DNA of 64,000 nucleotides from Azospirillaceae bacterium. Its GTDB lineage: Bacteria; Pseudomonadota; Alphaproteobacteria; Azospirillales; Azospirillaceae. Below, one piece after another: positions 6,626-8,771 of this stretch. The stretch covers positions 682,001 to 746,000 of the forward strand of contig JAPWJW010000003.1 in NCBI GenBank assembly GCA_028283825.1, written 5' to 3'. The position numbers and the translations under genes were made by a program. A model generated the notes under the pieces. That model worked only from the letters and a program-made list of their open reading frames with translations. It was not told where the DNA came from and did not search any database. Every line of letters starts with the position of its first letter. The stretch's first letter is position 1.

Positions 6626-7636
6626 ATGTCCCTGCCGCATCGCCTCGCCCTCATCGCCCTGATGGCCCTTCCCCTGGCCCCGGCCACCGGCCTCGCCCGC
6701 GACCTGGATATCGAGGCGCACCGCGGCGGCCGCGCGCTGTGGCCGGAGAACACGCTGCAGTCCTTCGCCCACGCCCTGTCGCTGGGCGTGACCACGCTGG
6801 AACTGGACATGAACATCACCAAGGACGGTGAGGTCGTGATCTCGCATGAGCGGCACCTTAACCCGGACCTGGCCAAGGGGCCGGACGGAACTTACGTCAC
6901 CGCCCCCACCCCGGCCTTCTTCGACCTGACCCTGGCGCAGATCAAGACCTACGACGTGGGCCAATTGCGGCCCGGCAGCACCTACGGCAGCCACTTCCCC
7001 GACCAGCGCCCCATCCCCGGCACCAAAATCCCCACCTTGAAAGAGGTGATCGAGCTGGTGAAGCGGTCCGGCAACAAGACCGTAAAGCTGAACATTGAGA
7101 CCAAGATCGCCCCCGACCATCCCGAGGACAGCCCGGCGCCGGAAGTGTTCGTGGACAAGGTGCTGGCCGTGCTGAAGGCCGAGAAGTTCGAGGACCGGGT
7201 GATCATCCAGTCCTTCGACTGGCGCACCCTGCAGGTGGTGCAGCAGAAGGCGCCGGCCATCCTCACCTCCTACCTCACCGAGCAGGACCCGCGCGAGCCG
7301 TCGGTCAGCCTGACCGGCACCAGCGCCTGGACGGCCGGCTTCGACCCCGCCACCCACGGCGGCACCGTGCCCCAGGCCATCAAGGCCGCCGGCGGCAAGA
7401 TCTGGTCGCCGCTTTACACCGACGTCGACGCCAAGCTAGTGGATGAGGCGCACGGCCTGGGCCTGACCGTCATTCCCTGGACGGTGAACAAGCCGGAGGA
7501 CATCGCCCGCCTGATCGACATGGGCGTGGACGGCATCATCTCCGACCAGCCGGTGATCCTGCGTGAGACGGCGGCCACCAAGGGCATCGTCCTGCCCAAG
7601 GGCTACCCGGTCGATGCCGTGGCCAAGAAGCACTGA
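6626..7636 (+). CDS. secreted glycerophosphodiester phosphodiesterase
   Basis: A 336-residue GDPD-family enzyme that hydrolyses glycerophosphodiesters to glycerol-3-phosphate and an alcohol. A signal peptide (residues 1-25, ending near ATGLARD) points to the periplasm. The catalytic TIM-barrel motifs are present: [13 protein letters not shown] near the start, [17 protein letters not shown] for the metal and second catalytic histidine, and SDQPVIL near the end. Size and the extra loop make it GlpQ-like. An AGGAG site lies at proper distance before the ATG. It stands alone, divergent from era and upstream of the metA leader. Confidence 0.93.
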
Positions 7637-7653
7637 CCCCCAATGGAAATGGC

Positions 7654-7680
7654 GGAGGCCTGCGTCCGGCGCGGGCCTCC
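7654..7680 (+). terminator. weak hairpin after the glycerophosphodiesterase gene
   Basis: A seven-base stem GGAGGCC / GGCCTCC with a 13-base loop lies 17 bases after the stop codon. There is no T-run, so it is at best a weak or factor-dependent end of transcription. It separates the upstream gene from the metA leader. Confidence 0.35.
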
Positions 7681-7710
7681 CCAACGTCGCTTGCCCATCG
7701 GCGGGACCAT

Positions 7711-7859
7711 CGCTAGTATCCCGCCCACATCAAGAGTTGGGGCGACGCCCAACGCCAACCTGCCGCTCCGGGCAAGGTGGCACCCCGCGAGGGGGATGGG
7801 GCCCGCCGGCAACAAAACGGACGAAGCCACTAGCGTCGCCCTCATGTGTAGGGAACGAC
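7711..7859 (+). promoter_or_regulatory. candidate riboswitch-like structured leader of metA
   Basis: The sequence folds by eye into a compact four-way junction. P1 is CCCACATC (7724-7731) with GATGGGG (7795-7801), with one bulged A. J1/2 is AAGA. P2 is GTTGGG/CCCAAC (7736-7741, 7748-7753) with loop GCGACG. P3 is 7754-7781, and P4 is CCCC-GCGA-GGGG (7783-7794). An outer stem CGCTAGT/ACTAGCG (7711-7717, 7829-7835) closes it. The P2 loop is fully complementary to CGTCGC at 7834-7839. That segment can instead form a hairpin (7835-7859) that traps the AGGG ribosome site. The ATCAAGAG start, four-helix order and P3 pattern recall S-box (SAM) riboswitches, but the kink-turn and several S-box core bases are missing. 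The class is unproven. Confidence 0.55.
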
Positions 7860-7865
7860 GTAGAA

Positions 7866-8771
7866 GTGCCGATCACCATTCCGGATGACCTTCCCGCCCG
7901 CCGCATTCTGGAAGCGGAGGGTGTCGATGTGATGCGCGAGACCGACGCGGTGCGTCAGGACATCCGGCCGCTGCGCATCGGCCTGCTGAACCTCATGCCC
8001 AACAAGATCAGCACGGAGACGCAGCTGGCCCGCCTGCTGGGTGCCAACCCGTTGCAGATCGAGCTGACGCTGGTGCGCATCACCGACCACGTGGCGCGCA
8101 ACACCCCGGCCGATCACCTGGAAGCCTTCTACCGTCCCTGGAGCGATGTCAGCGCCCAGCGTTTCGACGGCTTCATCGTCACCGGCGCGCCGGTCGAACG
8201 GCTGCCGTTCGAGGATGTGCGCTATTGGCCGGAACTGCGCACCATCTTCGACTGGACGCAGACCCACGTCCACCGCTGCCTCACCATCTGTTGGGCGGCG
8301 CAGGCGGCCCTGCATCATTTCCACGGCGTGCCCAAACATGCGCTGAATCAGAAGGCCTTCGGCGTCTTCCCCCACCGCAACCTGGCCCCGGCCTCGCCCT
8401 ACCTGCGTGGATTCTCCGACGATTTCGACGTTCCCGTCTCGCGCTGGACGGAGATGCGAAGGGAGGACATCCCCACCGACGGCGGTTTGCGCATCCTGGC
8501 GGCCAGCGACGACACCGGCGTCTGCCTGGTCGGTGACCCGGACCACCGCGCGCTGCACATGTTCAACCACCTGGAATACGACACCAACACCCTGGGCGAC
8601 GAATATCGCCGCGACGGTGGCGCCCAACTGCCCGCCAACTACTTCCCCGGCGGTGACCCCACCCGTACCCCGGGGAACCGGTGGCGCAGCCACGCGCACC
8701 TGCTGTTCGGCAACTGGATCAACGACATCTACCAGACCACGCCGTTCGACGCGCTGGCCATCGGCCGCTAG
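7866..8771 (+). CDS. metA: homoserine O-acyltransferase MetA, predicted acetyl-CoA specific
   Basis: A 301-residue MetA-family enzyme that acylates L-homoserine in the first committed step of methionine synthesis. The GTG start gives [19 protein letters not shown], colinear with E. coli MetA (MPIRVPDELPA). Catalytic Cys142 lies in TICWAAQAA, and the HMFNHLEYD motif carries the active-site His and Glu. Residue 111 is Glu (VTGAPVE). In characterised family members Glu at this place favours acetyl-CoA, and Gly (as in E. coli) favours succinyl-CoA, so homoserine O-acetyltransferase is the better name. An AGGGA site lies about 12 bases upstream, within a hairpin. Only four bases separate its stop from that of the convergent M23 gene. 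Confidence 0.95.

Follow-up and report, generated by a model that had tools for sequence, protein, structure and literature searches.

Which kind of RNA precedes metA in this member of the Azospirillaceae, and how could it decide whether the gene is translated? The leader lies in the stretch of DNA analysed here (the window, 64,000 nucleotides), which sits within a 7.16-Mb genome. The downstream gene is indeed metA, as its product scores 418 bits (E=2e-125) against Pfam HTS (PF04204) and also matches the MetA models NF047918 (440 bits) and TIGR01001 (391 bits), both below the name cut-offs of these models. Related metA genes start at the same position, but with ATG, and their protein begins MPIKIP.

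7866-8771, + strand: metA, homoserine O-acyltransferase (HTS family), with a GTG start at 7866
7850-7853, + strand: AGGG, Shine-Dalgarno-like site of metA, read from the sequence, 12 nt 5' of the GTG
7691-7719, + strand: possible promoter, read from the sequence, with TTGCCC (7691-7696), a 17-nt spacer and TAGTAT (7714-7719)

Transcription of the leader probably starts near 7726, as judged from the position of the -10-like box TAGTAT. In relatives, -10-like boxes are enriched 8-18 nt 5' of CATC, the 5' strand of helix P1, and the position of TAGTAT, 14 nt before CATC, is the commonest among relatives with a recognisable box. In a consensus promoter scan, the TTGCCC/TAGTAT pair was too weak to be picked up.

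Class and anatomy of the metA leader

The leader matches the Rfam family RF01725 (SAM-I/IV) over the whole model (1-99 of 99, cmscan), with 47.4 bits against a gathering threshold of 41.1. By this sequence match, the metA leader (7727-7865, with a start at ~7726) is a SAM-I/IV riboswitch, a new member locus of a known class, and SAM would be its ligand. The original prediction of an unclassified riboswitch, possibly of a new class, gives way to this full-length match above a curated threshold. Its other suggestion, a reduced S-box variant without a kink-turn P2, was right in substance and comes close to the description of SAM-I/IV, which was introduced as relatives of SAM-I and SAM-IV lacking the P2 internal loop (PMC2864571); P4 is present and PK-1 absent in the class (PMC6890682). 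It was also correct that the leader is not SAM-II, as the covariance model RF00521 gave no match up to E=10. No match to RF00162 (SAM-I) was kept, in output that shows only the best of overlapping clan members, and the other Rfam matches in the region, Atu_Ti1 and CRISPR-DR29, were rejected as far under their own thresholds.

7722-7826, + strand: SAM-I/IV riboswitch aptamer (RF01725, cmscan)
7728-7731, + strand: 5' strand of P1, CATC, pairing with 7795-7798; conserved in 28 metA leaders
7736-7753, + strand: P2 hairpin, 7736-7741 with 7748-7753, and its 6-nt loop L2 (7742-7747); covaries
7754-7781, + strand: P3, 7754-7764 with 7771-7781, and its loop L3 (7765-7770); RF01725 alignment and covariation
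7783-7794, + strand: P4 hairpin CCCC-GCGA-GGGG, 7783-7786 with 7791-7794; covariation in metA leaders
7795-7798, + strand: 3' strand of P1, GATG; RF01725 alignment and 28 metA leaders
7800-7810, + strand: putative P5, a short hairpin after P1; RF01725 alignment
7818-7821, + strand: 3' strand of PK-2, CGGA, pairing with UCCG (7767-7770) of L3

The leader had been drawn as a four-way junction of P1-P4 closed by an outer 7-bp stem, with a lack of covariation in related metA leaders named as grounds for giving it up. Covariation was found in P1-P4. Among 28 aligned metA leaders, 98.9% of the P1-P4 cells are paired and 21 have two-sided changes, where shuffles give 5.1; all slid versions lie far lower. 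This count takes in a fifth, short helix formed by the GGC that follows P1 and GCC 7826-7828. The four helices therefore stand, and the outer stem does not in its proposed length: P1 has 4-5 bp in relatives, and CCC 7724-7726 would be largely untranscribed, given the likely start at ~7726. P2 is uninterrupted in the window, without internal loop or kink-turn, and 100% of its cells are paired in the 28 leaders. The P3 region holds the conserved core CCAACC...CAAGGTGG in the RF01725 alignment, and three of the four P4 pairs show two-sided changes in metA leaders. P5 aligns to RF01725 in the window, yet with only ~3 pairs. At the level of sequence comparison, PK-2 is established as well, as own tails pair better than swapped ones in relatives (-9.0 versus -7.5 kcal/mol, p<=0.001). 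The P3-P4 junction of the window consists of one base (7782), so that PK-1 cannot form.

These features place the leader among the known SAM riboswitches. In SAM-I (S-box), which shares the SAM-binding core motif and the helix order, P2 contains a kink-turn and L2 pairs with the P3-P4 junction as PK-1. The window leader differs in its uninterrupted P2, its one-base junction and an L2 that pairs with the expression platform, and it was set apart from RF00162 on kink-turn P2 and PK-1, its P2 having no internal loop. The SAM-II riboswitch (RF00521), the one usually found with metA/metZ in Sinorhizobium and other Rhizobiales, has a fold unrelated to that of the window leader. SAM-II also controls metA in alphaproteobacteria (PMC9373788, PMC4239095). 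SAM-IV (RF00634) shares PK-2 and the putative P5 with the leader but has a split P2 and PK-1 and lacks P4 (PMC6890682); with its uninterrupted P2 and its P4, the leader was not assigned to that family. The likeness to SAM-I/IV (RF01725; aptamer of PDB 4L81) extends over the core, a P2 without internal loop, the absence of PK-1, P4 and PK-2, with P5 as a further, putative, common element. That the leader represents a new class without kinship to SAM-I/IV has scarcely any probability left: its score exceeds the gathering threshold by just 6 bits, but the alignment is full-length with the conserved core CAUCAAGAG, GCCAACCUG, CAAGGUGG, GAUG and GGCAA, PK-2 is present, and relatives form an unbroken series with scores up to 76 bits.

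Pairing of the P2 loop with the leader tail

The RF01725 model ends at 7826, and what lies 3' of this point falls outside it. L2 (GCGACG, 7742-7747) complements CGTCGC (7834-7839) exactly where this had been claimed, and the match extends to ten contiguous pairs, nine Watson-Crick and one G-U, between a strand X (GGGGCGACGC) and a strand Y (GCGTCGCCCT).

7739-7748, + strand: X, from the 5' side of P2 through L2 to one base of the opposite side; own-versus-swapped and column tests
7833-7842, + strand: Y, which pairs with X or with the ribosome-site region

When the 53-nt tail was shuffled with its dinucleotides preserved, 3.2% of the shuffles contained the exact 6-mer and 0.08% a 10-bp match with G-U allowed. 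In 4L81, the P2 loop is GAGA and the sequence stops at PK-2 (PMC5393176), which makes it uninformative on X-Y.

The source genome has two copies of SAM-I/IV; at wider ranks the riboswitch was found in 38 of 82 genomes (order), 35 of 385 (taxonomic class) and 19 of 398 (phylum). A P2-based DNA pattern gave 119 further stretches in named genomes (Brucella/Ochrobactrum, Roseibium, Stappia, Methylobacterium, Sphingomonas, Neoroseomonas, Phycisphaerae and others); because these hits were picked for X, its diversity outside GRGSNGRCGC is under-sampled. After duplicate removal, 151 leaders were compared, 46 of them before metA, 27 before genes like that behind L001 (see below) and 78 before others.

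Well over a hundred relatives of this leader conserve the L2-tail pairing. Among the 46 metA leaders, X matches its own tail better than swapped tails (15.96 versus 14.47, p<=0.0005); for own and swapped tails alike, the Y register was set by best match. The outcome is the same when only the 13 leaders whose tails are dissimilar are kept and, over all genes, with 39 such leaders. Two loop columns covary, X5-Y6 (UA 51, CG 34) and X7-Y4 (AU 80, GC 32), each with p=0.0002 and above all 5000 permutations, in a register fixed by columns outside the test, some of them invariant; the leaders compared are related to one another and not independent, and the permutation values are not phylogenetic tests. 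The covariation also holds on 72 distinct X/Y combinations, for which the score is 0.219 versus 0.170; none of 500 shuffles reaches 0.219 and every slide is lower. Per-leader shuffle tests of L2/P2 against the tail are individually weak (p<0.05 in 21 of 43), and the swap tests are the stronger evidence. In the 43 leaders found by covariance model, which are free of pattern bias, X-Y is seen in about half, and it is not clear in the SAR11-like ones. Some leaders have mismatches or a bulge within X-Y. The X4-X9 pair of P2 is often lost in metA leaders (G-G, 6-nt loop), where X4-Y7 is sometimes kept as G-C, the window included. RNAalifold did not show X-Y on the metA alignment, because its pairs cross those of P1 and are excluded by P2. 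Comparison of the sequences thus demonstrates the X-Y pairing.

A competing hairpin at the ribosome site

The original prediction also had the CGTCGC segment forming a hairpin that hides AGGG, which is the case for the whole of Y. In the swap test, which inherits the Y position found with X, the hairpin is more stable with its own partners than with swapped ones (-13.4 versus -11.7 kcal/mol, p<=0.001), and comparison establishes it as a competitor of X-Y. The ribosome-site strand resembles X (AGGG-AA-CGACG versus GGGG-CGACG in the window), and Y therefore has two look-alike partners. The proposal of two mutually exclusive pairings forming a translational switch is well supported by this comparative evidence, namely the swap and column tests.

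7833-7861, + strand: hairpin hiding the ribosome site, 7833-7838 with 7856-7861 and 7839-7842 with AGGG (7850-7853)
7826-7830, + strand: GCCAC, an alternative pairing partner for the strand directly 3' of GATG, with one mismatch in the window

In relatives, the variable bases of GATG[N]GGC and GCC[N] covary (p=0.0002), which suggests a second small strand exchange, between GCCAC and the strand after GATG.

We consider it probable that this leader is a SAM-I/IV switch that shuts off metA translation at high SAM through the choice between X-Y and the ribosome-site hairpin. With SAM bound, P1-P4 and PK-2 would be closed. The aptamer would keep hold of the 5' side of P2, and Y, now free, would fold onto the AGGG region and hide the ribosome site (OFF). 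Without SAM, Y would pair with X, that is, with the 5' side of P2 and L2, and GCCAC with the strand after the 3' side of P1; P1 and P2 would open, leaving the ribosome site free and metA translated (ON). X-Y would then be the SAM-free state, which also sets the direction of the switch.

The nested folds of the window are nearly equal, as a switch needs (-60.5 kcal/mol for X-Y and -60.0 for the aptamer plus ribosome-site hairpin), in a calculation that ignores pseudoknots and folding during transcription. Ligand binding energy would push the window RNA to the aptamer and hidden-site fold, leading to repression by SAM, the feedback to be expected for metA. In most other metA leaders, the nested fold favours intact P2 plus the ribosome-site hairpin with the aptamer unforced (mean X-tail pairing 0.15), so that full strand exchange is not predicted everywhere; X-Y may form there co-transcriptionally or as a loop pseudoknot. 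Several leaders of other genes have a ribosome-site hairpin that shares no more of Y than its 3' end, so that a loop-only pairing of L2 with Y could coexist with it.

An alternative reading is that L2 and the tail form a loop-only pseudoknot together with the closed aptamer, belonging to the SAM-bound state rather than to a fold that frees the ribosome site. We regard this as unlikely. For the six L2 bases of metA leaders (GNGACG) to pair, P2 need not open; GACG x CGUC hardly varies among metA leaders, and there is little overlap between the L2 pairing and the ribosome-site hairpin in L005 and leaders like it. However, in most leaders the complementarity runs into the 5' side of P2 (X1-X3), including GAG/UUC and GGG/CCC variants, and most non-metA loops have 4 nt, apparently too few for full pairing with P2 intact. 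In addition, because Y is a strand of the ribosome-site hairpin in metA leaders, such a pseudoknot would let SAM switch metA on, counter to feedback logic.

It is highly improbable that the X-Y match is a by-product of a G-rich P2 and a Y that is C-rich for ribosome-site pairing, with no functional pairing between them. Y8-Y10 are tied to the ribosome site, and invariant G/C columns give a high swap background (14.5 of a possible 20), yet X5 and X7, which have no ribosome-site role, covary with Y6 and Y4, and X still matches its own tail better when swapping is confined to metA leaders. The swap and column tests largely refute this explanation.

The chance that transcription termination is controlled instead is very slight indeed. 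A T run follows the hairpin in some relatives before other genes (L005), but the window hairpin includes the ribosome site and is followed by TAGAAGTG, not by a T run. No terminator-like site was found at 7500-8000; this speaks against a transcription attenuator and makes it more likely that the preferred switch between X-Y and the ribosome-site hairpin would act on translation.

Distribution and meaning

Leaders of this class precede several other genes. The second copy in the source genome (L001, C3:1265761-1265873, minus strand) and 26 other leaders precede a Beta_elim_lyase (Pfam) gene, threonine aldolase-like by motif, with a start ...QFASDNYSGVCPEAW; this gene is no obvious member of a SAM regulon. 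L005, L015, L041, L064 and their relatives stand before proteins of 83-115 aa that share a VHRR.G.WTH.YRV-like motif and have no significant Pfam match. In L065, L067 and L069, where the X-Y pairing is among the strongest seen, SAM-I/IV is followed by a 59-aa reading frame and then a MetF-like gene.

The tandem known from the SAR11-like group is SAM-II/SAM-V. A different one is found in a SAR11-like genome of 1.4 Mb (G349; L056, 1501-1690), in which a SAM-I/IV aptamer (1501-1592) is followed by a SAM-V aptamer (1623-1690) before a gene for a small secreted or membrane protein; L052, L060 and L062 have similar tails, below threshold.

Outside Proteobacteria, three Phycisphaerae MAGs (L099, L116, L128) have the same X-Y platform, GGGCTGACGC with GCGTCAGTYC, which suggests by sequence likeness a wider spread or transfer.

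Although the SAM-I/IV class is known, the X-Y platform is absent from its Rfam model. No report of P2/L2-tail pairing in SAM-I/IV was found in the text-searched literature, a search outside which the class crystal-structure paper and the 2010 supplement lie. Our judgement is evenly balanced on whether an undescribed platform is common to the SAM-I/IV riboswitches of alphaproteobacteria and of some other phyla, one in which the 5' strand and loop of P2 imitate the ribosome-site strand and Y chooses between the two.

Overall, metA of Azospirillaceae, Brucella/Ochrobactrum, Methylobacterium, sphingomonads and others has a SAM-I/IV leader and not the SAM-II of the Sinorhizobium type, and competition for the 5' strand and loop of P2 provides a covariation-backed, testable account of how the ribosome site may be controlled. 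Should it prove correct, a 3' extension of the Rfam model could take in the switch. If the platform is shared, L2, which is idle in the SAM-I/IV aptamer and the PK-1 partner in SAM-I, would become a switching element.
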